A DNA stretch of 32,840 nt from Chloroflexota bacterium (GTDB taxonomy: Bacteria; Chloroflexota; UBA5177). The stretch is from contig JAICWV010000023.1 of assembly GCA_025966365.1 (NCBI GenBank), positions 1 to 32,840 on the forward strand, read 5' to 3'. The translations under genes and the position numbers were made by a program. Within the stretch, counting starts at the first letter, position 1, and each line of letters starts with the position of its first letter. Below the pieces are notes generated by a model. It was given only the letters and a program-made list of their open reading frames with translations, was not told the origin of the DNA and searched no databases. Below are positions 282 through 21,811 of the stretch, piece after piece.

Positions 282-286
282 GTCAA

Positions 287-316: not shown

Positions 317-435
317 CGAAGGGTGGGCTGTGAGCTTTGAGAGATACGGGATGCGAGACAGGGGCTGAGTCGTATAGAGTACAGCGGCTCCGCCGATTTC
401 GGCCGTGTCCGCGACCCTCACAACTCACAGCTCCA

Positions 436-520: not shown

Positions 521-536
521 ACGCGCAGCGCGTTCA

Positions 537-542
537 AGTATA
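537..542 (-). promoter_or_regulatory. -10 element TATACT upstream of tRNA-Tyr
   Basis: TATACT on the minus strand ends 16 bp before the tRNA-Tyr 5' end, the right place for a start near 530. The -35 is weak (around ATGAGC at 17 bp). The same TATACT hexamer heads the rpsA and M23-peptidase promoters in this window, which supports the call. Confidence 0.45.
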
Positions 543-552
543 CAAGAGAGAT

Positions 553-1236: not shown

Positions 1237-1344
1237 GCGGTTAATGGACCGGCCCATCTTCGACACTGCGGAACTGCCGCTGCCTACGAACGGGTGGAGG
1301 TGAAGAGCGTCGAAACCTGCGGGCCGGCGAGGTTGTGAGTGGTG

Positions 1345-2628: not shown

Positions 2629-2648
2629 CCGGTTCTCGGGGCAGGGAC

Positions 2649-3563: not shown

Positions 3564-3566
3564 GAT

Positions 3567-4535: not shown

Positions 4536-4550
4536 AGGGATTCTTTCTCG

Positions 4551-5987: not shown

Positions 5988-6003
5988 GGAAACATCCCTC
6001 CCC

Positions 6004-6876
6004 TTAGTAGCCTGGGTTTGTCCTGAACGGATTTGACATTTTGACGAACAGCCACCTGTTGGTAACCGGCAGGGTGCGGAAGTGGGGGATCGACGGCTCT
6101 TTCGCCGACGGCAGAACCGCGCTGAGCTGCCAGCCGAAGTCCTTGAGGTGCTGGATTACCAGCGCTTCCTGCAATTTAGCCAGGACGAGCAGGGTCCCGC
6201 CGCCCACCGGTGCCGCGGTGCTGGCAGTGCCGGATGCTGCCGACGCGGCGGGCGGTCCTCCGACACTGATGACCTTGAGGTTGTTCAAAACGTACTGCGT
6301 TTGGGGCGGAGCGGTGGTCGGTACTCCCTGGCCTCCGCCGGTGTAGCTTGCGATCAGGTCCACGGCATCGCCGGCGGTGATGCTGCCAAGTACGGAGTTG
6401 ACGTCACTCAGGCTGATGGCGATGCCCACGTAGCCGAGCGGAATGGCAAATGATGGGCCCTGGGCCTGACGGTACTGGCCGAGCGTCGAGAACATTCCGC
6501 TCACGATGGGAACACTCTGGTAGATCGTTTGCGTGGTGGTGATCGTCCCGGCGCAGGCAGCGGTGATATTACGAACACAGCCCGCACTGGTGGCCACGCT
6601 GGCAATTTGCTTGACGCTACTGTAGGCGCCGAACGGAACCAGCGTCGCCGGGAACTGCTTCACACCGAAGTAGGTGGTCAGTGGCTGACCTGCTCGAAAC
6701 GATGTGCCCTGCGGAATGGTCTGCAATGCGACCACAACCGGGGTGGTCTTCTGGGGCGCGGTAGTTCCGCTCCCCCCGCCGCCCCGCGAGCTGAGGATAA
6801 AGAAGAGCAGCAACACAACGATGATGACGATGACGCCGATGATGACAAGCTGCCGGCCGTTTTCTCTTTGAATCAT
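6004..6876 (-). CDS. cpaB: CpaB/RcpC-like Flp pilus accessory protein (SAF domain)
   Basis: A 290-residue protein anchored by one N-terminal transmembrane segment (residues 10-28), then a Gly-rich spacer and a SAF-type domain (PVVVALQTIPQGTSFRAGQ, 46-64). A C-terminal RcpC-like domain follows (SFAIPLGYVGIAISLSDVN and GSITAGDAVDLIASY). In diderms RcpC meets the secretin; no secretin gene is present here, so it may contact peptidoglycan or the pilus base. C100 and C108 flank a small insert and could form a disulfide. ATG 6874-6876 has TAGGA 5 nt upstream. It heads the minus-strand cpaB-cpaE operon, separated from flp by a terminator. Confidence 0.85.
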   Translation of the reverse strand: MIQRENGRQLVIIGVIVIIVVLLLFFILSSRGGGGSGTTAPQKTTPVVVALQTIPQGTSFRAGQPLTTYFGVKQFPATLVPFGAYSSVKQIASVATSAGCVRNITAACAGTITTTQTIYQSVPIVSGMFSTLGQYRQAQGPSFAIPLGYVGIAISLSDVNSVLGSITAGDAVDLIASYTGGGQGVPTTAPPQTQYVLNNLKVISVGGPPAASAASGTASTAAPVGGGTLLVLAKLQEALVIQHLKDFGWQLSAVLPSAKEPSIPHFRTLPVTNRWLFVKMSNPFRTNPGY

Positions 6877-7072
6877 GCGGTCCTATCTCGAAACAGAATT
6901 TCAGTCACGTCGCGTGGGGGCTCCCCGTGACCATGTGGCTATTCTGGGACATCCGGATACGTGCTTGCCACGTCAATCTCGTCTGCTGCCCCTGTCGGCA
7001 CTGTAGCCGTATTGGCGTCCTCGATGAAGGGCCTATCGTCCCGCAGTTCTCGGGTCAATCGTCCTCTCCCAG
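6877..7072. other. Intergenic leader upstream of cpaB
   Basis: About 200 bases between the flp terminator and cpaB with no supportable gene. It must hold the promoter of the cpaB-cpaE operon; no convincing -35/-10 pair was found. TTGACG occurs on the minus strand but lacks a -10 at the right distance. An inverted repeat GTCACG (6904-6909) / CGTGAC (6926-6931), with a G-run facing a C-run inside, could form a 5' UTR hairpin. Confidence 0.4.
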
Positions 7073-7110
7073 ATAAGCGAAAAGGAGCGCCGGAGATCTC
7101 CGGCGCTCCT
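7073..7110 (-). terminator. Intrinsic terminator of flp
   Basis: A perfect 28-bp palindrome at 7083-7110 gives a 12-bp stem (5' arm AGGAGCGCCGGA) with a GATC loop. On the minus strand it is followed by TTTCGCTTATCT. It begins 20 nt after the flp stop codon and would limit read-through into cpaB, letting pilin be made in excess of the assembly proteins. Confidence 0.8.
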
Positions 7111-7129
7111 CGTGGTTGCTCGCGTTCGC

Positions 7130-7330
7130 TTAGGCGCTCTTGAGCGCGTTGGCGACATCCTGGAAGGTGTTCTGGATGTACGGGCCGATGGCGAGGATCA
7201 TGACAATAGCCACGATCGAGATCAGCGCTGCCAGCAGCGCGTACTCAATCATGTCCTGTCCTTCCTCATCCCGGCCCAGCGTCGCCAGCACGTTGCGCAG
7301 CCACATCTGAACGGTTGTCACGCTAGTCAT
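7130..7330 (-). CDS. flp: Flp-type major pilin precursor
   Basis: A 66-residue prepilin. The Flp cleavage motif is intact: G24|QDMIEY with E29 and Y30 at +5 and +6 of the mature protein, followed by a hydrophobic helix (ALLAALISIVAIVMILAIG, 31-49) and a short polar tail ending NALKSA. The leader (24 residues) is long but polar, ending GRDEEG. ATG 7328-7330 is chosen because GGAAAGAGAG lies just upstream and the length then matches the Flp family. Processing is expected from the prepilin peptidase at 553-1236. It is monocistronic, with its own terminator and a structured 5' region. Confidence 0.95.
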   Translation of the reverse strand: MTSVTTVQMWLRNVLATLGRDEEGQDMIEYALLAALISIVAIVMILAIGPYIQNTFQDVANALKSA

Positions 7331-7348
7331 TTCTCTCTCTCTTTCCTG

Positions 7349-7406
7349 CCTTACCTTGAATAAGGTTCTCGACTCTGAGTCGCCGGCAAGGCGCAATGCG
7401 TGCGCC
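7349..7406 (-). promoter_or_regulatory. Structured 5' leader of flp (candidate cis-regulatory RNA)
   Basis: Three small hairpins can be drawn in the flp leader: ACCTT/AAGGT (7353-7366), the 13-base palindrome CGACTCTGAGTCG (7370-7382) and GGCGCA/TGCGCC (7390-7406). A competing 7-bp helix pairs CCTTGCC with GGTAAGG (7385-7391 with 7349-7355). It shares bases with two of the hairpins and ends close to the Shine-Dalgarno. It does not match the c-di-GMP-I consensus. Function is inference. Confidence 0.35.
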
Positions 7407-7533
7407 TCCGAACGATCTCTAGGGGAAACAATACCCGGATACGCCATTCCGGCATATGGGCCAAACGGTCAGAATTGCTGGAAAAAGGAGTACTTCGTTA
7501 TTGGTCACTACGTAAAGTAATCGAAGAGCTACC

Positions 7534-9033
7534 TCATCCCCCCCGCCGCGTGTAGAGGATGGACTCCGCGTCTCGATAGGCGAGCCGCCAATGCGAGTCG
7601 AGTGCCAGGACCTGTGCCAGCGGGGCCGTGCGCTCGACGAGCACATTCTGGATGCGGTAGTGGTTCAACGTGGCCCGCCAGCCGGGCTGCGCGTCGTACA
7701 TGGTGACATATCCCGTCAAGATTCGATTGTTGAAGAGGGTATCGGCTCGCGAGTCCATGTAGTCTCGGTAGACCGGAAAGAGATGCCACAGTAGGTACCC
7801 GCCCCAGGAGTACGACACGAAGACGCGTGGCGGCAGACGGTGGTGCTGCATGAAGCGGATGGCGCCGACAGGGTATTGGGTCCGCTCCGTTCGGGCGAGC
7901 GCTTTACCGTTGATGTACCGCGCGCCCACCGAGCCGTACACAATCAGCACCAGAATGATGAGAATCAGGTTGATGCGCGCCTTGGCCGGCGTGATCGGGC
8001 GAGTGCGGCCGGCCGCTGCGGCGATTTGGGGCCAGAGTGTCGGACCGACCAGCGAAAGGGAGAAGGCCACTAGCGGCGAGACGACCACGGCCCACACGGG
8101 AACGTTTCGCACCTGGCTGAGTGCCAGATGTGTGAACCCAACCATGATCAGTACCGACGTCCAGTTGATCCGGGGACGCACGATCGCCAGCGATGCCATC
8201 AGGGCCAGGAGAAGGGCCTCAAAGATCATCATGACCGGAAGATGGAAGTTGGGGGACGCGCTCTCCTCGATGATGTTGGTGTAGGCGTTGGGCAGCACGA
8301 AGGCGAGTGGGTATAGCAGGAGCCGGTACGTGTTCGGGTTCACCACCGTGATGATGAAGCTGGCAATGAGCGCGAGCCCGAGATCGCGCAGCTGCAGTCC
8401 GGTGAGGCTACCCCTGCCCGAAACCACGTTTAGCCACTCTCCGACGAGATAGGCGCCGATCAGGACCAGTCCCAGGACAAAACCGCCATGGAGATTGGCC
8501 CAGATCAGCATCAACAGAGGCAGCGCCAACAACAGACGCCGGCTGGGACGCCGCGTGTAGCGATCCAGGATCAGGCAGTATACCGCCAGAAACAGGAGCG
8601 AGATCATCTGAATGCGCGGTCCCCAGCTGCCGGTGGAGCACATGAACGCCGCGGCCGTGACGAAGATCGCCAGCATGGGATGGATGCCCTTGCCCCGCAT
8701 GACCGCATAGACCACTGCGAATGTAGTAGTGATGACGAGGGCAAAGAACACGATCAGCCCCCAGAGTCCGGCCAGAGCATACAGGCCGTAAAGGAGGACT
8801 TCCGCCAGCCACTCGTGATCGGTCCAGGAATGGCCGCGGAAGCTGAAAGTCATATAGTCCCGGGTGGGGACCGAGCCCGAGTGCAGGATGTCATGGCCCA
8901 CCTTGAGGTGCCACCACAGGTCCGTATCCAGACGTGGGATGAGCGCGACCAGCAGGCAGGCCCCAAGCACGAAGACGACGGCGACGGTAGCGACTGATGG
9001 CGCCAGTCGCGTCAGGCCCCGGCTAGACTGCAC
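7534..9033 (-). CDS. Polytopic membrane protein, GT-C-like glycosyltransferase candidate
   Basis: A 499-residue protein with roughly ten hydrophobic segments and a soluble C-terminal part (about 395-499). After the first membrane helix it carries acidic motifs D36-x-D38-WWHLKVG and WTDHEWLAEVLL (70-81). This layout, with acidic residues in the first outer loop, is typical of GT-C enzymes that use lipid-phosphate sugars. The exact family is not certain. GTG at 9031-9033 is the start, with GGAGAGG just upstream inside the preceding gene; the two genes overlap by 11 nt. It is the last gene of a four-gene minus-strand glycosyltransferase operon. Donor and acceptor cannot be read from the sequence. 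Confidence 0.7.
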   Translation of the reverse strand: MQSSRGLTRLAPSVATVAVVFVLGACLLVALIPRLDTDLWWHLKVGHDILHSGSVPTRDYMTFSFRGHSWTDHEWLAEVLLYGLYALAGLWGLIVFFALVITTTFAVVYAVMRGKGIHPMLAIFVTAAAFMCSTGSWGPRIQMISLLFLAVYCLILDRYTRRPSRRLLLALPLLMLIWANLHGGFVLGLVLIGAYLVGEWLNVVSGRGSLTGLQLRDLGLALIASFIITVVNPNTYRLLLYPLAFVLPNAYTNIIEESASPNFHLPVMMIFEALLLALMASLAIVRPRINWTSVLIMVGFTHLALSQVRNVPVWAVVVSPLVAFSLSLVGPTLWPQIAAAAGRTRPITPAKARINLILIILVLIVYGSVGARYINGKALARTERTQYPVGAIRFMQHHRLPPRVFVSYSWGGYLLWHLFPVYRDYMDSRADTLFNNRILTGYVTMYDAQPGWRATLNHYRIQNVLVERTAPLAQVLALDSHWRLAYRDAESILYTRRGG

Positions 9034-10261
9034 GCGACCTCTCCGGGAGCGGTCTCAGAGCGAGCGCGAACCACGCCGCCAGGCCACCCATGGCCAGGAT
9101 GATCAGCTGAACATGCACGATGCCGGCCAGGACAAGGCCAAAGATGGCCAGGGCGTACAGGCTGCCGAGAGCGTACGGCAGCCATGAGGGACCGGAAGCG
9201 CGCGCCTGCAGCGCGATTCCGACCGGAATTAGCAGGAGCACCAGGTCATGAATGAGGACGTGGGGGCTTATCAGGAGACCGACGAGGATCGCCAGGGCAA
9301 AGGGAGGCGCCAGGCCGGGCGAGCGCCGGGCCAGCACGGCAAGAACGGCGAGGCCGGCCAGCGCCAGTACGGCGAGCACGGCAAGAGCAGCCCCAGACGG
9401 CAGGAGATCGCGAAGTGGACCCGCCAGACTGGCCGTCTTCTCCGGCCCGTAGCCGAATTGCGTCGTCCATCCCGTGGCGCGCCGCAACGTCTGGACATAC
9501 GCGGTGTTGATGTGGGCTCCCATAAACACCATGGGCAGGAGCGTGAAGAGGAGCGTAGCGCCCGCAAAGGAGAGGATCGGTCGCCAGCGCCCGCGAGCCA
9601 GAAGGACCACGAGGCACGGCAGTACGTATGTCGGCTTGATCATGGCCACTGCCAGTAAGACGCCGGCGAGCATGTCCAGCCGACGCTCGAGACTGAGCAG
9701 GGCACCGCCCAGCAATGCCAGGAGGAGGAACGACACCTGGCCCTGCAGCAGGCCGATAAAGGTGGGGATGAAGGTCCAGGCGCCGAGCCACAGAATGGCG
9801 GCGCCGGCCACCGCGAGCCGGGCGCGCCGCTGGACGATGACCAGAGCCAGGCAGAGCCACACCGCGTTGAGCGTTGCCCAGAACGCGTAGGCCGGGACCA
9901 GGCCGATCAGTCCCAGCGGGGCAATGGCGGCGGCAAAGTACGGCGGGTAGACGTAGGGAAGCACGCCGTAGGTGAGGTGGTACGGCGCGATGGCGTGCCG
10001 CTCCACGGCGCTGAGGGCGCCGAAGTTGTAGAGCGAGGCCCCGTGACCGTCGACCACCATGCGCGCAGCGCTGAAGTACGTAATAAAGTCCGTCTTCTGG
10101 GGCGGAATGTTTCCGGAAAAGAGCGTGAGAGCATACGCACCGAGGAGACCGAGTCCGAAAGCGAGGAAGACAGCCGCCACGGCCCGGTCCCGAAATCGGC
10201 TGGGCACAGCGACAGCCGCCAGCGTCACGCTCGTCCCCCTCGTCGATCTACGCACGGGCAC
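9023..10261 (-). CDS. GT87-family (DUF2029) membrane glycosyltransferase
   Basis: A 412-residue polytopic protein. The GT87 hallmark follows the first helix: KTDFITYFSAARMVVDGHGA (57-76), with D58 the likely catalytic acid, then YPPYFAAAIAPLG. Later comes the family pattern of a Gln/Arg-rich loop and KPTYVLPCLVVLLA. Characterised GT87 members are polyprenyl-phosphate mannose-dependent mannosyltransferases (mycobacterial PimE), so a lipid-linked donor is inferred. The start taken is GTG 10259-10261; GTG at 10226-10228, with GAGGGGG six bases upstream, is an alternative that trims 11 residues. It starts 18 nt after the upstream gene ends and overlaps the downstream gene. Confidence 0.82.
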   Translation of the reverse strand: MPVRRSTRGTSVTLAAVAVPSRFRDRAVAAVFLAFGLGLLGAYALTLFSGNIPPQKTDFITYFSAARMVVDGHGASLYNFGALSAVERHAIAPYHLTYGVLPYVYPPYFAAAIAPLGLIGLVPAYAFWATLNAVWLCLALVIVQRRARLAVAGAAILWLGAWTFIPTFIGLLQGQVSFLLLALLGGALLSLERRLDMLAGVLLAVAMIKPTYVLPCLVVLLARGRWRPILSFAGATLLFTLLPMVFMGAHINTAYVQTLRRATGWTTQFGYGPEKTASLAGPLRDLLPSGAALAVLAVLALAGLAVLAVLARRSPGLAPPFALAILVGLLISPHVLIHDLVLLLIPVGIALQARASGPSWLPYALGSLYALAIFGLVLAGIVHVQLIILAMGGLAAWFALALRPLPERSRAV

Positions 10262-10279
10262 CCGGCACCCGGCCCCAGC

Positions 10280-11818
10280 TCAGGCCGTGGCAGCGAACGA
10301 CCCCTGTGGCTCAACGTGCGCCTGCGCCGGCACGTGCTTGTAGACCCAGATGATGCGTACGACCAGAGCCGCGATGATGACGGCCATGGGCAGGAAGGCG
10401 AGGGGGCCGCTGAGCCCGAGCAGGGATCCCCACGCGAGCGCCAGCTTGCCTTTGGTCAGGTTCGGGAGCACCTGGTGATAGAAGGGGAAGTGGTCGGCAT
10501 AGGGGAAGCCGCCCGACCAGCCGGAAATCACGACCAGTGCCATGGAGAGCACGGAGAGGGCGCCGAGGACCGCGAACGCCACCCGGTAGGCGGCGGTGCG
10601 CAGACCGAGCGCGATCGGCAGCATCATGAAAGGAAGGAGCGGGACCAGATGGCGGGAGGCAACGCTCCAGCCGCCGGACCAGCCGTTGACGTCTTGAGGG
10701 CGTGACGCGTCCATGAGGAAGTACAGCGCGATGGCGACCCCGCACAGTACTGTCTCGGCACGCAGGTCACGCCGCTTCCCCATCAGGACGAGGCCGGGCA
10801 CTACCAGGAGAAGCACGGGGCAGAGCGTGAGAATGCCGCGGTACGTGCCGAAAGTGATTTCCCACAGGGAGTTCCACGTCGGCGGTTGGATCCCGTAGGA
10901 GAGGGGATCGCCCAGGCCCAGGATGCCGGAGCTGATGTGGTGGTGGTACAGGGACGACTGCACGTGCATGTATCCGGTGGCCAGCGGGCTGCCAAAGGCA
11001 ACGGTGTTATAGGCAAGCTCGGCCACGATGCAGGGGACGGTGCCGAGCGCCACGGTGGCGAGCGCTTGGATGCGGCTGCGCGCGATGGCGGCGAGGTACA
11101 CCACGATGCACAGGAACAGGACGACCGTCGGGTACTCACTGATCACGGCGAACGAGCCGAGGAGGCCGGCCGCGGCCAGCTGCCAGTCGCGCCGTCGCGT
11201 CGCCGGACGCCTGGCGTAGAGGAAGAAGAGCATGAAGGCGGAGAAGAGGGCAATGGCACAGATCTGATGACTGAAGTACCACATGGAGTAGGGATAGGCC
11301 GTGGTTCCCAGGGCATAGGCGCCGGTTGCAACCATAGCCCACCCGATGGAGATGAAGCGGGCCAGGAAGAGCCAGAGGAGAACGGCGAAGAGCGCGGACG
11401 GAAGGATTAGCAGGACGTAGGTGATGGCATAGCGAAGGTACGCTGTGCTGCGGGGGAGGGTATATCCGTGGCGGCCCACGGCGCCATAGGGCTCGGCCCG
11501 CTGGTGCAGAAGCGCCTCGGCGAGAGCGTACACGGGCACGGCGATCAAGGAAAGACCGGGCGCCTTATCGCTGTAGTAGTGGCCGTGCCAGAAAGACTCG
11601 TCGCCCAGCCGCCGGGCGTAGCGGTCGATCGTGACCGTGTGATGGTCCACGATGCTGAAGGCGACGTACAGGTGGCTTTCAGTATTGAAGTTGGGCGTAG
11701 CCGGAATCACGTAGGCATAGGCCACCACGATAAGCCAGAACAGGGCGATGCCCAGGCGCTGGTTCCGGGTGCTCGGCTTGCGCTTCGAGCGATCAAAACG
11801 GTCTCGGAAGCTCATCAT
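10280..11818 (-). CDS. GT-C-type polytopic membrane protein (glycosyltransferase candidate)
   Basis: A 512-residue protein with about eleven hydrophobic segments. After the first helix lies NFNTESHLYVAFSIVDHHTV (43-62) with an acidic residue in the first loop, then YYSDKAPGLSLIAVPVYALA, a motif pair recurring in GT39-like/GT-C proteins of Chloroflexota and Actinobacteria as I recall them. Sugar specificity is unknown. It starts ATGATG at 11813-11818; AGGAG lies 13 nt upstream, a little far. It is preceded by a 51-nt gap after the GT87 gene at 11870 and followed by another GT87 gene, which suggests one operon. Assignment to an exact CAZy family is not possible by eye. Confidence 0.7.
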   Translation of the reverse strand: MMSFRDRFDRSKRKPSTRNQRLGIALFWLIVVAYAYVIPATPNFNTESHLYVAFSIVDHHTVTIDRYARRLGDESFWHGHYYSDKAPGLSLIAVPVYALAEALLHQRAEPYGAVGRHGYTLPRSTAYLRYAITYVLLILPSALFAVLLWLFLARFISIGWAMVATGAYALGTTAYPYSMWYFSHQICAIALFSAFMLFFLYARRPATRRRDWQLAAAGLLGSFAVISEYPTVVLFLCIVVYLAAIARSRIQALATVALGTVPCIVAELAYNTVAFGSPLATGYMHVQSSLYHHHISSGILGLGDPLSYGIQPPTWNSLWEITFGTYRGILTLCPVLLLVVPGLVLMGKRRDLRAETVLCGVAIALYFLMDASRPQDVNGWSGGWSVASRHLVPLLPFMMLPIALGLRTAAYRVAFAVLGALSVLSMALVVISGWSGGFPYADHFPFYHQVLPNLTKGKLALAWGSLLGLSGPLAFLPMAVIIAALVVRIIWVYKHVPAQAHVEPQGSFAATA

Positions 11819-11869
11819 ATCGGCGGGGTTTCTCCTGGATTGAGCGCTGGAGTGGGTGCGGGCGGCGGA

Positions 11870-13078
11870 TTAGGCCGACGTGCCGTAGCTCTTCGCCGCA
11901 GCCACGTGTTGGACAGACTGCCGGCCTCGAAGCGGCCACGGAATCAGCGACGCGGCCAGCACGACGAACAGAAGACACGGTGCGATGATGTGGTCGGCGC
12001 CAGTCTGAACCGGTGCGGTCAGGGTAACCGCGTAAAGAATAATCACTGCCCGCGCTCGATCGCCAGGGAGCCTGCTGGCGAGGAAGGAAAGCACAACGGG
12101 CGCCAGAAATATGTAGTCGTAATAGTGGTCATACGGAGCCACGGCAAACCACAGCAGCCAGAGCCAGGCGATCTGCCGCACGCTGATCGGACGGACTCCC
12201 CAGTAGCGCCGCAAGGCGAGGAGCGTGGCAGCTCCGGCCACGACCACCAGAGCGGCCGCAATCACCATGGAGACACGGGCAGGCAGATAGGGCTCGTAGA
12301 GGACGTTAAGCGAGGCGAAGAGCGTCTGGAAGCGCAGCGTGTCGGTAAACGAGTGAAAAGCCTCCAGCCACCAGAGAAGGGTTATCGGTCCCGCGGTGAC
12401 GGCGCTGGCAACCAGAATCCCCCCGGCCCCGAGTGCGAAGCCGGCCAGTGACCGCAGCCAGGAGGCACTGTGGAAGAGAAGGACGAGCCCTGCCAGCGGC
12501 AGCGCCAGCTGTGGCTTGCAGATGGCCATGGAGAGAAGACATCCAGCCAGAAGAGGATGCCGCCGCGCCAGAAGGAGCCCCAGGCTACAGGCGGCAAACA
12601 CCAACACACCCAGATTGGCGATAAAGATGTAGTACGTCATGGGCGGCAACGCCAGGCCGATCAGAATCGGCAGGACCACCCTGCGGCGGCCGAAGGCTGC
12701 AAGTGACGCCCACAGCCCGACGATTGCCGAAAGTGCGAAGACCACCTCGAGGACCGCGCTGCCGAGGGCGAGAGAGCGTCCTCCCAGCGGCTCCATGGCC
12801 CAGAAGAACACGGGGGGCTCGGCAACCCTGGCCAGCTGTTTCCCGCGGGTGTGCTCGCTCAGTCCGACCATCTTGCGTTTGCCCTCCCACACCAAGTGCC
12901 AGTCGTACGGGTTGTCGCCGCGGTGCAGCACCTGCGCGGCGCTGATGTAGTCGGACGCGTCCTTGGCCACGGTGTTTTTGGGCCCGTTCAGGCTCACCAT
13001 GACCAGGAGCCAGACCCAGAAGAGGAGCAAAGAGCACAGCGGAACCAGGGCCAACTTGGTCCGCAGCGATGAAGTCAT
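11870..13078 (-). CDS. GT87-family (DUF2029) membrane glycosyltransferase, second copy
   Basis: A 402-residue polytopic protein. The first outer loop has KDASDYISAAQVLHRGDNPYD (D43 the likely catalytic acid), then EPPVFFWAMEPLG. It continues with the GT87 pattern of an Asn in a membrane helix (IANLGVLVFAACSLGLLLAR) and AGCLLSMAICKPQLALPLAG. It differs clearly from the GT87 protein at 9023-10261, so a separate linkage is likely. ATG 13076-13078 has no strong Shine-Dalgarno. It is the first gene of the minus-strand glycosyltransferase operon; the promoter must lie in 13079-13279, which also carries a repeated GAAAGGAGTAC element. Confidence 0.8.
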   Translation of the reverse strand: MTSSLRTKLALVPLCSLLLFWVWLLVMVSLNGPKNTVAKDASDYISAAQVLHRGDNPYDWHLVWEGKRKMVGLSEHTRGKQLARVAEPPVFFWAMEPLGGRSLALGSAVLEVVFALSAIVGLWASLAAFGRRRVVLPILIGLALPPMTYYIFIANLGVLVFAACSLGLLLARRHPLLAGCLLSMAICKPQLALPLAGLVLLFHSASWLRSLAGFALGAGGILVASAVTAGPITLLWWLEAFHSFTDTLRFQTLFASLNVLYEPYLPARVSMVIAAALVVVAGAATLLALRRYWGVRPISVRQIAWLWLLWFAVAPYDHYYDYIFLAPVVLSFLASRLPGDRARAVIILYAVTLTAPVQTGADHIIAPCLLFVVLAASLIPWPLRGRQSVQHVAAAKSYGTSA

Positions 13079-13190
13079 GTGGCAACTCTACGGGAGGCCG
13101 CGGACCGCTGTCTATGGCTCTTTGGTGGACACTTTCTACCCACTCAGTTCCTGCTCTCGCCCGCGTAACCAGTGTTCGTACTTCCTGTAT

Positions 13191-13225
13191 GAAAGGAGTA
13201 CTCCCCAGGTAGACGAAAGGAGTAC
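13191..13225. repeat. Direct repeat GAAAGGAGTAC x2
   Basis: GAAAGGAGTAC occurs at 13191-13201 and 13215-13225, 24 bp start to start, with a diverged inverted copy GTACTTCC just before the first. A near match (AAAAAGGAGTAC, 7482-7493) lies upstream of flp. The 201-bp gap 13079-13279 separates divergent genes, so these could be regulator sites. No binding protein can be named. Confidence 0.35.
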
Positions 13226-13279
13226 GTTGGCGCGGAACTTGCACTGGCTGACGGCAGAAAGGTTCCGGTGGGAAGGCAA

Positions 13280-13660
13280 ATGATTAGAACGGCAAATCAC
13301 CCAGCAGCTGATGTATCGCAACGTCGCCAGACACGCTGGCACTCGTTTCAAGTTGTTTTTGCGCTCGCGTATGCGGGCATCGTGCTTGATATCGTCACCA
13401 CGGCTATCGGCATCGCCAAAGTCGGGTTTTCGTACGAACGGAATCCAATGACGGCAGCGCTCATCCACGATCTGACGTGGGTCGGTGTCCTGATCTTTCT
13501 GTCCGCGTTCGCGGCTCTCTGCTATGTCTCGGTACGGATCGTGTGTTTCCGGATGTCGCCGAAAGTCACCGCGGTTCTCACCGCTCTGCTCGGCGTGGGC
13601 GCGCTCGCTCGCTGGACCATGGCGGCCGGCGCTGTCCTGTTCATCATGCAGACGCATTGA
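13280..13660 (+). CDS. Small membrane protein, DUF5658-like
   Basis: A 126-residue protein with three to four hydrophobic segments. The stretch YAGIVLDIVTTAIGIAKVGF followed by SYERNPM matches the DUF5658-type pattern (LD..TT......G..E.NP) as I recall it; function is unknown. ATG 13280 is preferred over the in-frame GTG at 13268 because GGGAAGG lies just upstream of the ATG. It stands alone on plus between minus-strand glycosyltransferases, ending 17 nt before the convergent PIG-V-like gene. Its placement suggests an envelope role, but that is inference only. Confidence 0.7.
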   Translation: MIRTANHPAADVSQRRQTRWHSFQVVFALAYAGIVLDIVTTAIGIAKVGFSYERNPMTAALIHDLTWVGVLIFLSAFAALCYVSVRIVCFRMSPKVTAVLTALLGVGALARWTMAAGAVLFIMQTH

Positions 13661-13677
13661 GCGGGAGCCCAGCGTTT

Positions 13678-14814
13678 TCAGAAGACGGCGTAGCCCCCGG
13701 CAAAGAGGGCGACCGTGAGGACCAGCAGGGCGAGAGATAGGCAGAAAATCGCGGCCTGGACGGGGCGGTTTCCGATGAGCGCCCAGGCCGCGAAGACCGG
13801 ATAGAGGACGATCACGTAGCGCTCCATGCTCACAAGGCCGTGTATCAGGGGAAGCGCCACGCCGGCGCCAACATAGACGGCGTAGGCGGGACCGATGATG
13901 CGCCACACTAGAATCGCCGAGAGCAGGAAGAGGATGGCTGCCGCGGCATCGATGCGATCGAACGGCGACAGCTGGGTGTGAAACTGGGAGCCGAGCGTGG
14001 ACATGATGCCGCCGTGGGGTGGCACCCAGCCGGCGCTGTGGTAGATGGTGAAGGCCAGAGGGTTTCCGACCGCGGCCCACAGATAGCCGACAAAGGCGAG
14101 GAACGGTAAGAGTGAGACCGCGGTGATGGCGGCCTGCCGTTTACCGGCAGTGTGAAGGGCATACACCACCAGTGCGGCGATCACGGCAAGGCCGACCGGT
14201 CGGGTGATGCCGGCCAGTCCGGCCACGGCCGCCGCCCAGCCCCAGTGACGCCGTTCGGCCAGGAGGAACGTTCCGGACGCCAGTGCCAGGAAGAGTGATT
14301 CCGCATAGGGCGCGGCAAAGAAGAGGGCAAAGGGAAAGACAGACAGGAGGAGAATTGTCCGCAGCGCGACGTCGCTCCCCCAGCGGCTGACGGCCCAGAC
14401 CCAGATGATGAGGATGGCGGCGGCGAAGGCGAGATTGGCGATTAGCCAGGCTGCGATCCAGGGACTGCCCAGCGTAAGAGGCTGCAGCGCCCGGATGAGG
14501 AGCGGATACAGCGGGAAGAAGTTGGTATTGCTCTGCGCCTGACCGGACAGATGGTATCCATGCTCCGCCACGTCGACATACCAGCGGGCATCGAAGCGAA
14601 ACCAGTTGGATGCCCACGGTCCGAGTCGGGCCAGCGGATCGTCGGCAGGTAGCACGGACGGGTATTTGTTGCTCGGAGGCAGGAGCACCGATCCGAAGCG
14701 CACCAGGAGGAGCAGCAGGATGCGGCCGGCAATGAAGACGGCTGCCGGTGCCTGCAAATCGCGAATGCTCCGCCCTGCCGCGCCTCGAGCCCGTATGTCC
14801 ACCTCTCGAATCAC
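13678..14814 (-). CDS. PIG-V-like mannosyltransferase, membrane
   Basis: A 378-residue polytopic protein resembling the bacterial PIG-V/GT76-like group. Key motif after the first helix: WFRFDARWYVDVAEHGYHLS (FDARWY, with the acidic residue in the first loop), then NTNFFPLYPLLIRAL and FAAPYAESLFLALASGTFLL and AGITRPVGL. Eukaryotic PIG-V adds the second mannose of GPI from dolichol-phosphate mannose; bacterial relatives are taken to use polyprenyl-phosphate sugars. GTG 14812-14814 is preferred, with GGAGG 5 nt upstream; GTG 14818-14820 would abut that Shine-Dalgarno. Divergent from the GT2 gene, which probably makes its donor. Confidence 0.82.
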   Translation of the reverse strand: MIREVDIRARGAAGRSIRDLQAPAAVFIAGRILLLLLVRFGSVLLPPSNKYPSVLPADDPLARLGPWASNWFRFDARWYVDVAEHGYHLSGQAQSNTNFFPLYPLLIRALQPLTLGSPWIAAWLIANLAFAAAILIIWVWAVSRWGSDVALRTILLLSVFPFALFFAAPYAESLFLALASGTFLLAERRHWGWAAAVAGLAGITRPVGLAVIAALVVYALHTAGKRQAAITAVSLLPFLAFVGYLWAAVGNPLAFTIYHSAGWVPPHGGIMSTLGSQFHTQLSPFDRIDAAAAILFLLSAILVWRIIGPAYAVYVGAGVALPLIHGLVSMERYVIVLYPVFAAWALIGNRPVQAAIFCLSLALLVLTVALFAGGYAVF

Positions 14815-14833
14815 CGTCACCTCCGGTTGGCGA

Positions 14834-14861
14834 TTGCCATCTGTACCGACTAAGGTATACC
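14834..14861 (+). promoter_or_regulatory. Promoter of the GT2 gene
   Basis: TTGCCA (14834-14839), 16-bp spacer, TATACC (14856-14861). The expected start is about 14867-14869, only 2-4 bases before the ATG at 14871, and no Shine-Dalgarno is present. This predicts a leaderless mRNA. Confidence 0.5.
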
Positions 14862-14870
14862 GTCGCCTAC

Positions 14871-15581
14871 ATGAAACTCTCTGTCGTCATTCCCACATAT
14901 AACGAAGAGCGCACGCTGACGGAGGTCATCGAGGCCGTCCGATCGGTTGATCTGACGTCACTCGATGAGGCGATTGAGCGCGAGCTGATCGTGATTGACG
15001 ACGGCTCCTCCGACCGGACGCCTGCTGTCCTGGCCGCGTACGCGGAGTGCCCCGATGTGCAGGTCCTGAGACACGACGTCAACCGCGGGAAGGGTGCGGC
15101 GATTCAGACCGGATTCCGTGCCGTGACCGGCGATGTGGTGATCATCCAGGATGCCGATCTGGAATACGATCCGGCCGAGTATCCGCGGCTGCTGGAGCCG
15201 ATCGTGTCGGGCCGCGCGGATGTCGTCTACGGCTCGCGCCTCTCCGGCGGGCGTCCCCAGCGCGTGTACCTCTTCTGGCACCTGGTGGGAAACCGGGTTC
15301 TGACGTTGCTCACGAACCTTCTCTTTAACTCCACCCTCACCGACATGGAGACTGGCTACAAAGTGTTTCGGCGGGAGGTGATTGAGAGCATGCATCTTCG
15401 GGCAAACGATTTTCGCATCGAACCGGAGATGACGGCGCACGTGCTCAAGATTCCGGGACTGCGGGTCTACGAGATGCCGATTGCCTACTACGGGCGGACG
15501 TACGACGAGGGGAAGAAGATCACCTGGCGTGACGGGCTGGGGGCGATCACGACCCTTCTCCGCTGCCGCTTCCTGGAATAG
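14871..15581 (+). CDS. GT2 glycosyltransferase, polyprenyl-phosphate mannose/glucose synthase-like
   Basis: A 236-residue cytoplasmic-face enzyme of the DPM1 type that transfers a sugar from a nucleotide donor to polyprenyl phosphate. GT-A features: SVVIPTYNEERTL (4-16), LIVIDDGSSDRT, RGKGAAIQTGF, the metal-binding DAD in IIQDADLEYDP, GSRLSGG and TDMETGYKVFRREV. There are no C-terminal membrane helices, so it is the soluble short form. A promoter immediately precedes the ATG and there is no Shine-Dalgarno, so a leaderless message is likely. Its product would supply the PIG-V-like and GT87 enzymes around it. It converges on the DUF192 gene 25 nt downstream. Confidence 0.93.
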   Translation: MKLSVVIPTYNEERTLTEVIEAVRSVDLTSLDEAIERELIVIDDGSSDRTPAVLAAYAECPDVQVLRHDVNRGKGAAIQTGFRAVTGDVVIIQDADLEYDPAEYPRLLEPIVSGRADVVYGSRLSGGRPQRVYLFWHLVGNRVLTLLTNLLFNSTLTDMETGYKVFRREVIESMHLRANDFRIEPEMTAHVLKIPGLRVYEMPIAYYGRTYDEGKKITWRDGLGAITTLLRCRFLE

Positions 15582-15606: not shown

Positions 15607-15969
15607 TCAGCCTGCTTCGGCGAGGGTCACGGTGTCGCCCATCTGCGTCTGCGTGCGGGAGATGGTGCCCACCGGTAGCTCGACCACCAACTTCGAGGCG
15701 CGCACGATCTTGCTCGCCTTCCACGGCCGCAGATCCTCGATCAGGTGTACGACCCGGCTCTCGGAGTCCAGAAACACAACGTCGATGGGAAAGCGCATGA
15801 AGAAGGAGACGACACCGCTGCACGGCTCGATGATCAACCCCCCGTCAGACGGCAGTCCTTTCTTTCCCATGAGTCCAAGGCCGCGGGAAACCGGGTTCCG
15901 TACCCGGCCGCTGTGCTCGGCGAGCACCGTGCCGCGGGTCTCATTCGAAACGCGATAGCCTCCTGTCAT
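15607..15969 (-). CDS. DUF192 family protein
   Basis: A 120-residue protein with the DUF192 pattern: RGLGLMGKKGLPSDGGLIIE, then SFFMRFPIDVVFLDSESRVV, RPWKASKIVRASKLVVELPVG and a final GDTVTL strand. The family is a small beta fold often secreted; its function is unknown. No signal peptide is seen here. The ATG at 15967-15969 overlaps the stop of the large M23 gene (ATGA), so translation is coupled and the two products may act together at the cell surface. The GT2 gene converges from the other side. Confidence 0.88.
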   Translation of the reverse strand: MTGGYRVSNETRGTVLAEHSGRVRNPVSRGLGLMGKKGLPSDGGLIIEPCSGVVSFFMRFPIDVVFLDSESRVVHLIEDLRPWKASKIVRASKLVVELPVGTISRTQTQMGDTVTLAEAG

Positions 15970-18900
15970 CGGCGGCCTCCTGCGGCGCACGACGTGCAGG
16001 GAACAGAGGTGCGCACGCTGCGCTCGAAAAGAACGGAGCCGGCACCGACGACCGCCACCGTCGCCTTGCGCGAGGTCGAGACCAGGGAGGTTCTGGCGAC
16101 ACCGTCCGCGCTGAGGCGAACGCGTCGCTGGTCGACCCTGCCGCCTGCCACCGTCCACGTCAGCGTCGCCCCCCTGGTGCCCGGAGCGTCGATCTGGAGC
16201 TCGTGTTTGGGGCGGAGCACAGTCAGCTGAAGCTGGGGAACGCGGACCGAGATGTTGCCGCTCGCGTCACCAATCTGGACAACCATGCCCGGCTCTATAT
16301 GCACGCGGCGATTATGACTGTCCAGCAGGTGCGTTGAAAAGGCGCCCGTGAGCGGATCGGAGGTGAGCCGCGCGGTCGCGAGTACCTTTCCCTTTCCGGA
16401 CACGGCGCGGATGCGTATCGCGCTTCCTCTGATCGTCTGGCCGGTGACGCGATTGGAATGTTCGTGAACAATGATGCCGCGTACCCGCTGGGAGGTGACG
16501 AAACCACTGCCGTTCGGGCTTTGCACCTCGGCGGTCGCGCTGTCCCCGATGCCGATTTTCGGGCCAGGGATGGAGAGAGACGCGTGGCCCGAGACGCCGG
16601 TCGCCAGTGCCCTCTGCCAGGGATTGGCCGGGCGGTTCCAGCGCACATTGACAGTGGCGTGGGGCGGCCCGGTCACTTCCAGGCTGGAAGCCCCGGAGCT
16701 GAGTGTCAATGCGAGCCTGGGCACAGCTGCTCGATAGCGGTGCCACTGCGTTCCGATGCTCACGTCGTCGCCCGGACTCAGGGGCACCGGATTTCCCGCC
16801 CGAACCAGAGCCACCCGGAAACTTCCGTCCGGCGCCGGGCTCAGCGACCGGGAGTACACCTCCCGGCCATGACGCCACACCTGCAGCGTTGAGCCGCGGC
16901 CGGCGATCCAGCCCGTGACACTGCTTCCGGCCAGATCGACCACCATGCCGGGGACATAGCCCGCCGCCGATTCCTGGTCGCCGCCTGCATCGACGGTCGA
17001 GGCGATGGCGAGGGCCCCGGCACCCAGGGGCTCCGGAAGCGAGACATGAAATCGGCCGGTGGTGTCCGTGCTGGAGATGATCTGCTGCACCGGCCCGCCG
17101 CCGGCCGGTATGACGGTGATGGGGACGCTCGATCCGGGCCGCGTTCGCCCGCTCAGCGACCGCGCATGGGCGTGCATCGAGAACGCGGCTACTGTCACCG
17201 ACGCCTGCCGTCCTCCGCTTCGTACCTCGACGACATCACCCGCGCGCACCGCAACCGGATCGCCGTTGCTGTTGTGAAGCATCACGACGAAGCCGCCGGT
17301 CTGGGGATCGGACGTCGTCTGGGCGGCCCCCGGCGCACGGCCCTGGCGGTTCACGGACACCGTAACGTTCTGTCCCGGGAGTGCGTACCCGGCCACCAGG
17401 GCGTGGCCGTTGACCGCCGTCACGAGCGGACGCCAGGCGTGAAGCGCTGATCGGAAGCCTACCGGCCAGAGCGAGGGGGCTTGCTGTTTGCCGAGCTGAA
17501 TCAGGACACTGTGTGCGAGACCGGTCTGTGCCGCGGTCAGGTCGTCCGGAGAGACCCCGGAGAGCGACGCGACGCCCGGGAGCGCTTCCAGCGTGGCCGA
17601 ATCGGCCGTGCCTCGTACCCACACGGCCGCAGCCGCGGGAATGATCTGATACCCACTGATCAGCCCCTGGGCACGGAGATCATCCAGATAGGGGACAAGA
17701 AGCTCGCCTTCCTGGGTGATGGCTGATTCCGTTCGCGCCAGAGCGGGGCCCGCGGTCAGCCCTGCGGACGGGGACGGGTCGGGAAGCGTCAGGAGAAGAA
17801 GACGGTCCACCGGAGGCAGCGAGCGGCTCCGGGTGGAAAGTGCCGGGAGCTTGAGGTGTAAACCGGCCGGGAAGGTGGGCCAGCCCGGCGGCGGGTTCAG
17901 AAGCAACGGATCGTGCCCGGGCAGCCAGAGGTAGGCGGCTGTCTCCCCGTTGAATGACTTCAACGGGTCGGCGCCGGATCCCGTCCACCCGTAGGGATCG
18001 GTCACATTGCAATTGTGGAAGACACTGAAGTGCAGGTGCGGGCCGGAAGAATTTCCCGTCGATCCGCTGATCCCGATCTCTTCTCCGGCCGTGACCTGGT
18101 CGCCTTTGTGGACCTCGAGAGTGCTCAGGTGGCCGTAGAGAGTGACATAGCCGTTGTGGTGGTTGATCAGGATCATCTGCCCGTATCCCTCGGATTCACT
18201 GGCTCCATTCCAGCCCGCATACGCGACCGTCCCGCCCGCAGCTGCCAGGACCCGCTGATAACTGATCCCGAAGTCGTAGCCGTTGTGCCCGTCGTAATTC
18301 ACGTATTGGCGCAGCGACGTCGACCAGTAGGCGGGGAAGAAATCGGACTCCTCGCCCTGGGAGGCGGACGCAACCAGTCCGTTGGCCAACACCATCCGTC
18401 CATCCATGGCGTAGTCGGGGTAGTCGTGGTCAACAAACGAGTTGATGGTTGCCCAGCCCCCGAATGGAGATATGAGGAACGGCTCGGCCGTGGGGTACTG
18501 CTTTTTTCCGCAGGAGAGCTGCTCCGGTGCCGAGGCGTCCGGGTTTCCGGTGCTACTGCCGAGCGAGGCGATTGACTCCGTGTTGTTGCCCGTGTCTGCC
18601 GTGTATCCCATCGGCGGGGTGGTGCCGGTGGAGGGTGCCGGCTGGGTTGTGGACGAGATGCTGCTGGAGGGGGTGACGGCCGTGGGTGCAGGAGACGGTC
18701 CCGTTGGCCCGGACGACGGCAGGGTGACCGTGGGCTGGATGGTGGCGACGAGGTGGGATGGCCTCTCACCACGCACGACCACGGGAGAGGTGTCCGGAAC
18801 AGGCTGCACCGGCGGCGCTTCCGTCGCCACCGGGATCGGGATGTCGGTGGGCGCGGACACGATGGGGGGCGGCTCGTTGGTCGGTGGCGGCTGAACGATA

Positions 18901-19007
18901 GGGGGTGGTTGTGGCGTTGATACGCCCGCCCCCGTGTCCGCCTGCACCGGCCCGCCGCCGAAGAGCACGAGAACGGTGGCAACGATGATGCAGCGTACGA
19001 CCGTCAC
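15966..19007 (-). CDS. Large secreted M23 peptidase with tandem beta-type repeats
   Basis: A 1013-residue secreted protein. GTG 19005-19007 is chosen: GGGAG lies 8 nt upstream and a signal peptide follows (VTVVRCIIVATVLVLFGGG, cut after PVQA near 23). Residues 24-160 are Pro/Thr/Ser-rich. About 235-335 is an M23/LytM zinc endopeptidase with both motifs intact: HNGYD (H241, D245) and HLHF (H324, H326), with GHLS and GISGSTGNSSGP between. About 424-491 resembles the I9 propeptide pattern of subtilases. About 531-1000 holds six divergent modules of 75-85 residues, several with T.SDP.TG.F and PG..V. The tail has PCTSC. Likely acts on peptidoglycan or as an adhesive wall protein. DUF192 is coupled downstream. 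Confidence 0.88.
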   Translation of the reverse strand: MTVVRCIIVATVLVLFGGGPVQADTGAGVSTPQPPPIVQPPPTNEPPPIVSAPTDIPIPVATEAPPVQPVPDTSPVVVRGERPSHLVATIQPTVTLPSSGPTGPSPAPTAVTPSSSISSTTQPAPSTGTTPPMGYTADTGNNTESIASLGSSTGNPDASAPEQLSCGKKQYPTAEPFLISPFGGWATINSFVDHDYPDYAMDGRMVLANGLVASASQGEESDFFPAYWSTSLRQYVNYDGHNGYDFGISYQRVLAAAGGTVAYAGWNGASESEGYGQMILINHHNGYVTLYGHLSTLEVHKGDQVTAGEEIGISGSTGNSSGPHLHFSVFHNCNVTDPYGWTGSGADPLKSFNGETAAYLWLPGHDPLLLNPPPGWPTFPAGLHLKLPALSTRSRSLPPVDRLLLLTLPDPSPSAGLTAGPALARTESAITQEGELLVPYLDDLRAQGLISGYQIIPAAAAVWVRGTADSATLEALPGVASLSGVSPDDLTAAQTGLAHSVLIQLGKQQAPSLWPVGFRSALHAWRPLVTAVNGHALVAGYALPGQNVTVSVNRQGRAPGAAQTTSDPQTGGFVVMLHNSNGDPVAVRAGDVVEVRSGGRQASVTVAAFSMHAHARSLSGRTRPGSSVPITVIPAGGGPVQQIISSTDTTGRFHVSLPEPLGAGALAIASTVDAGGDQESAAGYVPGMVVDLAGSSVTGWIAGRGSTLQVWRHGREVYSRSLSPAPDGSFRVALVRAGNPVPLSPGDDVSIGTQWHRYRAAVPRLALTLSSGASSLEVTGPPHATVNVRWNRPANPWQRALATGVSGHASLSIPGPKIGIGDSATAEVQSPNGSGFVTSQRVRGIIVHEHSNRVTGQTIRGSAIRIRAVSGKGKVLATARLTSDPLTGAFSTHLLDSHNRRVHIEPGMVVQIGDASGNISVRVPQLQLTVLRPKHELQIDAPGTRGATLTWTVAGGRVDQRRVRLSADGVARTSLVSTSRKATVAVVGAGSVLFERSVRTSVPCTSCAAGGRR

Positions 19008-19252: not shown

Positions 19253-21811
19253 GTGCTGACCACTATCTTTCTCATACTCTGTGTCGTCACGGGATTCGTG
19301 CCGGCTCAGCATTCGGCATCCGCGGCGGTGATAACCAAGAGCGATGGCGGGTGGTCCGGGACTGCATTGCTGCAGGTACGCGAGACGCACGCCCAGCCAC
19401 GGCAGGTGAACAACCCGACGTCGTCCTGTCTTCCCGGCGTGGCCATCGCCACTCCGACCCTCACGCCGTCGCCCACGCCGACGCCGATCCCCACGCGCAC
19501 CGGGACGCCCACTCCCGGCCCAAGCCCCACGCCGACGCCGGTCCCCACCATTCCCGGTGGGTTCACGCCCACGCCGACCGTGGTTCCAATCCAGACTCAG
19601 TGCGCAGTGAGCGCGCAGCCGCCCCTGGCATTTAACGAGCTCGGCAATCAGCACACCTTCACCTTCCTCTGCGGCAATGCGGTGACCCTGCTTCCCGGAC
19701 CCACCGCGAATCCCGCGCCGAGCACCGGGTGCTTCGATGTGCAGGCATCGGTGGTGGATATATCGGAAGGCGTGGACGTTCCCATTAGCGCGGCGTCGTG
19801 TGGCCCGTTTTCGGCAGCGATATCAACGACCGCCAGCTGCGCGGGTACGTATAACCCCATCTGCGCGGCCGGAACTACGGCGAGTAACGGCACGTGCCTG
19901 CCAGTTTGCCCGACGGGCGCGGTCATCCTCGGCACGACGTGCACGGTGCAGCCGGTAAACGGGGCATGTCCTTCGGGGTCGTCACCGGTCACGAACTCAT
20001 CCGGCGGTATTGCCTACTGCACGGTGCCGGCCAACAGCACGCCGACAATAAATAACGAAGTAACCGTCACCTTCAGTAGCGGCGCGCCGCACGCTTTCCT
20101 GGTTCAATTCACCGGTTTCCTCCCGACACGCGCGGATGGAACGTGTCCGCAGGGCACGACCTTTGTTGCATCCGCGCTCCTCGCTTCGGCGTCGAATACA
20201 TCACCGGGGTACAGCGGCCCCGCCTGCGCCTTTACCGTTGGCGCCGAAAAGAAGTATCTGGAAGCGAATGACCTCACGATTCACCCTCAGGGAGCCTGTG
20301 GCGCCGTGGTCGGCCCTGGCGAGTTCGGATTGCAAGAGGCCGCCCCCTGTTTCTTCACGGTTTCCGCGGCGGGACAGGTCATCCTCAAGTCGGGAGTCAA
20401 TTGTGCTGATGGATCGGAGCCCGCCACGGGCACGGATGCCACGGGCGCCGGATTCCCTACCGGCTCGACCTTCAGCTGTTCCGGTGGTGTGCTTGCGGTC
20501 GTCAATATCCCCATGTCCAATGTGCCCATTCGGGTGACCGCCACCAACGGCTTTTTCAGTCCCATCTGTTTTCCGCCAGAGCGTCTGGTGACCCCGACTG
20601 CCACGCCAGAACCCGGCACGGCGACGGAAACGCCGACAGCCACTCCGTCGGCCACCGACACACCGACGATCGTACCGTCGCCCACGCCGCTCGGCACGCC
20701 TCCACCGTTCTACTCCGAGACCCCCCTCTGCGGCCCGCCCGGCGTCTCGTTCCTGGACACGTTTACCACCTCGGCCAACCCGACACCCCCGATCGTCACG
20801 TACTCGGTGGCCCCCACCAGCGCCGTGGTGACCGAGGGCGGTGACGCGACAATCCGCGGCGTGTTTGTGGTCGACGGGAGCGCGATCTCCGGCGTCGATA
20901 TGTTCGTCACCGTCCACTACCCGGGCGGCGATCGGTTCTGCAGCGCCCTGACTCTCGGAGATGGCACCGCGGAGTGCTCCACCAACACCGATTCCACACC
21001 CCCGGGCACCAAGGTCGCGGTGGATGTGCAGTTCCAGTACGACTGTGCCGAGTTCACCGCCAGCACCAGCTTCGTGGTCGGCGGGCCGGGCACGCCCACG
21101 CCGGTTGCGGCCCCGCGGGGCACCGTGAACCAGGCCCGGGGCCCGACGGGAATCTGCGTGGTCCGTAGCGGCTACGGCGATCTCGTGGTCGAGGCATCGG
21201 CACGATCGACCACCAACACCCAGCCGCCGCTTTCATCCGGTCCGTTCACGTTGGGCGCGTTCGGCGTGCCCACGGCCACTCCGGCTCCTACCGCCACCGA
21301 AACGCTGGTGCCGACCAACACGCCGGTTCCGACCGCCACCAATACGCCGGTTCCCATCGCCGAGATGGCGACGCCGACCGAGACTCCTCCGCCAACCGAC
21401 ACAGCAACCCCCGCGCCGCCCACGGCCACCCCCGCTCCCACTTCGGCCCCTCGCCTTACCTGGGAAATCAACGCCGCCCGCGTGCAGAAGAAGGGGAGCC
21501 TGGCGAATATGAAGGGGATGAAAACCGTTCACCGCGGCCAGACGGTGTGGCTCTTCGTGTATTACACCGTGACTCGCGCGCCCAAGAAAATGTCGTTCTA
21601 CTCCACCTACGCCGTATTCCACGGTTCCTCGAGGGTGCGGAGTAAGACGTACAAGGGCACGCAGAACAAGAATGGGACCGGCCGTTTCGGCCGATATGAC
21701 GACTGGACCGCGCTGCGCACACAGCCGCTCGGTCGCTATACATTCAAGGCGAGCCTTCAGTTCGGCAAGAAGAAGAAGACCGCTACCTGGACGTTCAACG
21801 TCGTCCGCTAG
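19253..21811 (+). CDS. Large secreted protein with Pro-Thr linkers
   Basis: An 852-residue secreted protein of unknown function. GTG 19253 starts a signal peptide (TTIFLILCVVTGFVPA, cleavage after SASA near 24). Three Thr-Pro-rich linkers (about 66-111, 446-484 and 672-733, with PTATP and SPTPTP units) separate a Cys-rich globular region (about 112-440), a beta-rich domain (about 490-610, with VTEGGDATIRGVFVV), a short segment (611-671) and a basic C-terminal domain (735-852) with HRGQTVWLFVYY and repeated KKKK. The last resembles a beta-sandwich module. No catalytic motif was recognised. It has no sorting motif or membrane anchor; the basic end could bind the wall. Divergent from the M23 gene; ends 7 nt before the convergent regulator gene. 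Confidence 0.85.
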   Translation: MLTTIFLILCVVTGFVPAQHSASAAVITKSDGGWSGTALLQVRETHAQPRQVNNPTSSCLPGVAIATPTLTPSPTPTPIPTRTGTPTPGPSPTPTPVPTIPGGFTPTPTVVPIQTQCAVSAQPPLAFNELGNQHTFTFLCGNAVTLLPGPTANPAPSTGCFDVQASVVDISEGVDVPISAASCGPFSAAISTTASCAGTYNPICAAGTTASNGTCLPVCPTGAVILGTTCTVQPVNGACPSGSSPVTNSSGGIAYCTVPANSTPTINNEVTVTFSSGAPHAFLVQFTGFLPTRADGTCPQGTTFVASALLASASNTSPGYSGPACAFTVGAEKKYLEANDLTIHPQGACGAVVGPGEFGLQEAAPCFFTVSAAGQVILKSGVNCADGSEPATGTDATGAGFPTGSTFSCSGGVLAVVNIPMSNVPIRVTATNGFFSPICFPPERLVTPTATPEPGTATETPTATPSATDTPTIVPSPTPLGTPPPFYSETPLCGPPGVSFLDTFTTSANPTPPIVTYSVAPTSAVVTEGGDATIRGVFVVDGSAISGVDMFVTVHYPGGDRFCSALTLGDGTAECSTNTDSTPPGTKVAVDVQFQYDCAEFTASTSFVVGGPGTPTPVAAPRGTVNQARGPTGICVVRSGYGDLVVEASARSTTNTQPPLSSGPFTLGAFGVPTATPAPTATETLVPTNTPVPTATNTPVPIAEMATPTETPPPTDTATPAPPTATPAPTSAPRLTWEINAARVQKKGSLANMKGMKTVHRGQTVWLFVYYTVTRAPKKMSFYSTYAVFHGSSRVRSKTYKGTQNKNGTGRFGRYDDWTALRTQPLGRYTFKASLQFGKKKKTATWTFNVVR

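Follow-up and report, generated by a model that had tools for sequence, protein, structure and literature searches.

The window, the whole stretch of 32,840 nucleotides analysed here (contig JAICWV010000023.1 of assembly GCA_025966365.1, from an uncultured soil bacterium of the Chloroflexota, UBA5177 lineage), carries on its minus strand, at positions 15966-19007, a real gene coding for 1013 predicted amino acids. With a probability of about 0.6, its product is an M23-family zinc endopeptidase which is secreted and acts on the peptidoglycan of the cell's own wall, and whose tail is mainly a spacer or holdfast. After export, the M23 domain would cut peptide bonds in the cell's own peptidoglycan, and a flexible linker rich in proline, threonine and serine (P/T/S), together with a C-terminal string of immunoglobulin (Ig)-like modules, would hold the peptidase within the wall or outside it. 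A shorter paralogue, built on the same core of M23 domain, ferredoxin-like domain and one Ig-like module of type A, would be anchored in the membrane through a helix at its C-terminus. The catalytic residues, repeats, fold classes, paralogue, restricted distribution and synteny are computed results; substrate, activity, location, the spacer role and a structural role of the ferredoxin-like domain are inferred. In a genome with so few M23 enzymes, the two forms, one secreted with a long stalk and the other membrane-anchored, would offer a simple case for studying what determines how far wall hydrolases reach and where they sit.

The M23 catalytic domain

With Pfam, the Peptidase_M23 domain (PF01551) was located at residues 240-338 (E 3.5e-28; 98.1 bits, cut-off 28.7). 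The first-pass annotation, made from the sequence alone, had described an intact M23 site occupying about a tenth of the protein, and both points hold: the motifs HNGYD and HLHF are present, and the domain accounts for 99 of the 1013 residues. Positions of the type of H241, D245, H293, H324 and H326 are catalytic in M23 enzymes, and these residues were identical in all four orthologues that cover the site; the row of a fifth orthologue begins after M23 and lies outside this count. The catalytic core aligned with solved M23 enzymes, among them LytM, lysostaphin, zoocin A, ShyA and DipM, sharing with this family the catalytic domain and the zinc motif, and the enzyme part itself is ordinary. What the window protein adds to enzymes of the LytM, lysostaphin, ShyA and DipM type is a conserved N-terminal extension (residues 165-239) and a long tail, whereas the LysM, SH3b and coiled-coil partner domains of M23 enzymes were not seen in it with Pfam. 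Alignments beginning inside the N-terminal extension were also found in other families of the phylum. Mur ligase matches in six open frames of the genome are consistent with a peptidoglycan wall.

The Ig-like modules of the tail

Residues 527-1002 were predicted by AlphaFold to form strands only, in a pattern that fits six beta sandwiches (mean predicted local distance difference test score, pLDDT, 77.3; predicted template modelling score, pTM, 0.54; 6 sequences), and the limits of the modules R1 to R6 were placed by eye on this pattern. The predicted sandwiches are Ig-like, and a repeated fold is present in the model. In a self-alignment of residues 528-1013 the best local score was 83, while none of 100 shuffled versions scored above 58. 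When the ferredoxin-like domain and the six modules were compared with one another by profile (21 pairs), the values were 98.5 % for R1-R5, 97.3 % for R1-R3, 95.4 % for R2-R4, 94.3 % for R3-R5 and 85.1 % for R2-R5. All remaining pairs were at 34.5 % or below, the six pairs with the ferredoxin-like domain at 0.3 % or below, and when the columns of the five best pairs were shuffled as a control, 20 times for each pair, no value exceeded 1.2 %. By these comparisons, the tail consists of two alternating, related module types, A-B-A-B-A, followed by a divergent sixth. None of the profile comparisons linked R6 significantly to another module, and its assignment as a copy of the B type was not supported. 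Six repeated modules with a recurring T.SDP.TG.F signal had been proposed earlier; repetition beyond chance was borne out, six copies of one type were not, and the signal is clear in R1 and R5 only, being degenerate in R2 and R3.

R2 matched the bacterial Ig model Big_6 (PF17936) above the cut-off at residues 613-678 (33.6 bits compared with 27.6), and Big_6 matches were found in three of six orthologues at E values up to 1. The modules besides R2 had no separate Pfam match; R4 and R5 are connected to R2 by profile (95 and 85 %, respectively) and R6 is not. A profile search of the PDB with the whole tail gave no matches at E values up to 1. By structure, the tandem resembled the adhesin extender 6xi3 (Foldseek E 4.2e-12, VIA Z 8.1) and the Bap C region (VIA Z 9.6), but because many complement and alpha-2-macroglobulin chains scored alike, the likeness is one of fold class and not of family. 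The string of sandwiches is thus similar to Big_6 and adhesin extender modules, from which it differs in that its modules other than R2 lie below detection or below the cut-off, and in that it is attached to a peptidase.

Conservation, distribution and the paralogue

Amino acid identity to the orthologues was 63-79 % in the M23 domain, 32-62 % in the ferredoxin-like domain and 28-51 % in R1 (46-51 % within the family), and 22-32 % in R2, 21-38 % in R3, 18-26 % in R4, 20-32 % in R5 and 12-22 % in R6. This decay from M23 to R6 suggests a weakly constrained spacer. The first-pass annotation had considered a wall-remodelling enzyme with a long binding stalk, with which the M23 site, the export-like start, the Mur ligases and the likeness of the Ig tandem to adhesin extenders agree, whereas the binding role does not fit as well, since the decay in conservation favours a spacer. 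Complete orthologues were available from G001 and G005; those of G002, G003 and G004 end at contig ends, and the last also has a run of N. Neighbouring genes are kept in four of the five orthologous contigs. The conserved gene order among relatives points to a vertically inherited housekeeping gene, and since it is retained one-to-one beside housekeeping genes, its substrate is more probably the wall of the cell itself.

The contig scan gave five loci, all from metagenome-assembled genomes (MAGs), three of them titled Chloroflexi bacterium (one UBA5177) and two Proteobacteria. The latter, L029 and L031 ('Proteobacteria bacterium', Centralia MAGs), fall within the family/order of the window, and their titles look erroneous. 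When the same architecture was sought elsewhere, the post-M23 core was found in 6 of 400 sampled genomes of the phylum and in six of the seven genomes covered from the class, in searches which score only the best candidates per genome, so that distant copies may be missed; the phylum samples, of 400 and, for some searches, 301 genomes, were drawn evenly and are not exhaustive. In these searches, the ferredoxin-like domain combined with alternating Ig modules was confined to one order-level lineage.

All six genomes bearing the core have both the long protein and the shorter paralogue. The paralogue (G000:C95 and its counterparts) shares with the long form the M23 domain, the ferredoxin-like domain and one type-A module, but ends in a transmembrane-like helix and has no R2-R6. 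The helix was recognised by eye in five of the six paralogues; the sixth, that of the window genome, meets a contig end. M23 was found at only two places in the window genome, which is 97 % complete, and one of these two genes, in a genome of an uncultured Chloroflexota class, carries a lineage-specific domain layout. In G001 and G002, a LytB/IspH gene adjoins the counterparts of the paralogue (G000:C95, L021); homologues of that gene are present in G000 and G003.

The ferredoxin-like domain and its relation to I9

Residues 398-485 were predicted by AlphaFold to fold in the order beta-alpha-beta-beta-alpha-beta, with a first helix of 28 residues (pLDDT 77.9, pTM 0.68; the model covered 130 residues, the domain plus its following helices). 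This is the order of the subtilase propeptide, Inhibitor I9 (PF05922), yet it is common to many unrelated ferredoxin-like families, and the first helix is longer than that of I9. It had been claimed that approximately residues 424-491 follow the I9 pattern without a subtilase. The absence of the protease was confirmed, as no subtilase was found in the protein, for which Pfam gave only M23 and Big_6. As for the pattern, the predicted topology agrees with it and the sequence does not: the Pfam I9 model had no match in any of six orthologues (E up to 1) or in 12 family members (E up to 10), and hhalign comparison with real I9 domains from subtilases of the phylum (six domains; a seventh PF05922 match, L050, was excluded as none of its frames passed the filter used) gave 1.9, 1.2 and 4.7 %, the last with 14 sequences, none of them significant. 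Since the I9 model gave no match and the profile comparison no significant one, I9 membership is not established. A profile search of the PDB with the I9-like segment gave three weak matches, with no subtilase among them. The domain also differs from I9 in its position C-terminal to M23.

Among structural neighbours, VIA placed HMA domains first (Z 7.2), with an FtsEX chain at 5.7 and the subtilase prodomain 8gkp_J at 5.4 (rank 47), all within the range that the tool calls common. Foldseek gave nothing at E 0.001 or better, with pro-subtilisin E listed at E 2.2; families beyond those listed by either tool are possible neighbours.

An I9 origin of the domain is possible. That it is a true I9 derivative, acting as a protease inhibitor or as a cis folding chaperone which guards M23 from secreted subtilases or aids its folding, is nevertheless quite unlikely. 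The weak hhalign alignment with the I9 domains of the phylum does fall in register over helix 2 and strand 4, the genome carries a subtilase with its own I9 (just below the Pfam cut-off), and these points stand with the topology, the prodomain and pro-subtilisin E in favour of such a derivation. A similar I9-like domain, which heads Ig tandems without M23 in G120 and G128, gave 54 % against the real I9 domains of the phylum, which also speaks for the derivation. Against it, this bridging domain gave only 0.8 % with the domain of the window protein, and copper-chaperone HMA domains are nearer by fold; the Pfam and hhalign results weigh on the same side. A version in which a domain derived from a subtilase propeptide was recruited without its protease between the wall hydrolase and the Ig stalk, as a protease shield or a docking site for secreted cell-surface subtilases, is very doubtful. 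If the domain is indeed a recruited I9, the known uses of I9 would extend beyond subtilases.

Alternative readings

A tail that binds a specific ligand (wall glycan, S-layer or a surface polymer) is rather unlikely. Ig-like folds often bind ligands, and R1, beside the ferredoxin-like domain, is moderately conserved in the family and is kept in the paralogue as well; R2-R6 are, however, poorly conserved (12-38 %), and most structural neighbours come from stalks, extenders or complement-type sandwiches, with no single binding family. The protein is unlikely to be a secreted lytic weapon, or a scavenging enzyme, directed against other bacteria: it is retained one-to-one across the order, among housekeeping genes whose order is conserved in the family, only two M23 genes were found in the genome and no immunity-type neighbour was recognised, even if the signal-peptide-like start, the lack of a recognised anchor in the long form and an M23 domain that resembles not only housekeeping enzymes but also zoocin A and lysostaphin would suit such a role. 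Among the many M23 models of NCBIfam, those for EnvC, NlpD and ActS gave weak similarity, which could suggest a degenerate M23 with the role of EnvC and NlpD, the activation of a second hydrolase. This is extremely improbable, as those matches were far below the cut-off and the catalytic residues are all present and invariant in the orthologues covering them.

Several observations weigh against an endopeptidase of the cell's own wall with a spacer tail. The decay of identity along the tail would also fit a fast-evolving binding tail. In the long form, neither a wall-binding module nor an LPXTG signal nor a transmembrane helix was recognised, the Z values of single Ig modules were near the common-fold level with a tail model pTM of 0.54, and in G005 none of the conserved neighbours were found within 21.7 kb.

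Related architectures

The architecture had been thought not to be a described family. This holds for the whole chain, for which no family name was found in Pfam or NCBIfam and no description of the layout was found in the titles and opening parts of abstracts of open-licence literature. PMC10608941 has passages on UBA5177, peptidoglycan and monoderms. As to the general plan, M23 with variable C-terminal beta modules occurs in several other families of the phylum: in six of seven proteins scanned from outside the class, M23 was followed by fn3, FG-GAP or Golvesin_C, and the seventh had no Pfam tail. Similarity to these proteins starts in the same N-terminal extension, they share DP(Y/F/W/L)G(W/Y) after HLHF, and their tails are of beta type; their tail families differ, however, and no ferredoxin-like domain was recognised in them. 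The tail layout of the window protein is a lineage-specific variant.

Secreted-looking proteins of 999-1096 amino acids, which lack M23 and in which a tandem of Ig-like modules comes after an I9-like domain, were seen in other Chloroflexota families (L064:3265-6552, minus strand; L065:3294-6290, plus strand; L075). Homologues of this type were found in 4 of 301 genomes of the phylum, and two have a stop codon inside a match. Three open frames of 1074-1419 amino acids (L066, L067 and L068, G127) contain little besides tandem Ig-like modules, which are related to those of the tail described here, and are possibly giant surface stalks.

Gene start, layout and genomic neighbourhood

The open frame, found on the minus strand only, runs from GTG at 19007 to 15966, with the TGA stop at 15968-15966. 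The same frame is open upstream to an ATG at 19247. The GTG is favoured as the start because GGGAG and TATACT were seen by eye 8 and 30 nucleotides 5' of it, respectively, and the hydrophobic signal-like residues come directly after it. The ATG was rejected as the likelier start, as 80 additional residues would precede the hydrophobic segment. The features are collected in Table 1.

Table 1 Features of the M23 gene and its adjoining genes in the window
Feature	Position	Strand	Basis or remark
Complete gene, GTG start: putatively secreted M23 peptidase with six Ig-like modules after a ferredoxin-like domain	15966..19007	-	open frame; aligned with 5 orthologues
Signal-peptide-like N-terminus, residues 1-24 (hydrophobic, then VQA-D)	18936..19007	-	by eye from sequence
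P/T/S-rich linker, residues 25-160 (P 23 %, T 15 %, S 13 %)	18528..18935	-	composition; 20-32 % identity to orthologues
N-terminal extension of M23 domain, residues 165-239	18291..18515	-	58-66 % identity to orthologues
Peptidase_M23 catalytic domain, residues 240-338 (H241, D245, H324, H326)	17994..18290	-	Pfam; solved M23 enzymes; conserved residues
Ferredoxin-fold ('I9-like') domain, residues 398-485, beta-alpha-beta-beta-alpha-beta	17553..17816	-	AlphaFold; structural neighbours
Helical connector, residues 486-526	17430..17552	-	AlphaFold model; 31-73 % identity
R1, Ig-like module type A, residues 527-609	17181..17429	-	AlphaFold strands; profile comparison and shuffled controls
R2, Ig-like module type B, residues 610-690 (Big_6 at 613-678)	16938..17180	-	Pfam; AlphaFold strands; profile comparison
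R3, type A, residues 691-764	16716..16937	-	AlphaFold strands; profile comparison
R4, type B, residues 765-845	16473..16715	-	AlphaFold strands; profile comparison
R5, type A, residues 846-925	16233..16472	-	self-alignment; AlphaFold strands; profile comparison
R6, divergent last beta module, residues 926-1002	16002..16232	-	AlphaFold strands; without profile match to R1-R5
DUF192 gene, start overlapping the M23 stop as ATGA	15607..15969	-	Pfam 4.2e-18; GCAGGAGG upstream of start
Secreted-looking P/T-rich protein of 852 amino acids, divergently transcribed	19253..21811	+	conserved neighbour, no family

The DUF192 gene is, judging from the overlap, likely to be translationally coupled to the M23 gene. 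The two genes form a conserved pair: among the three relatives in which the contig extends past the gene, DUF192 also follows M23 in G001 and G004, and not in G005. The divergently transcribed 852-amino acid protein had no match in Pfam or NCBIfam, its start is signal-peptide-like, and no repeats common to it and the M23 tail were found with BLASTP (best E 1.4). Several membrane glycosyltransferase-like genes (GT87, PIG-V-like below the cut-off, GT2), for which no named pathway was found, are clustered at positions 1-15581. The 852-amino acid protein adjoins M23 in G001, G002 and G003, and the order ClpC, RadA, PIN/TRAM, IspD, SpoU, regulator and 852-amino acid protein is kept in G001 and G003. 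Parts of the neighbourhood are kept elsewhere, the 852-amino acid protein in G002, and DUF192 with the glycosyltransferases in G004, as also in G001.

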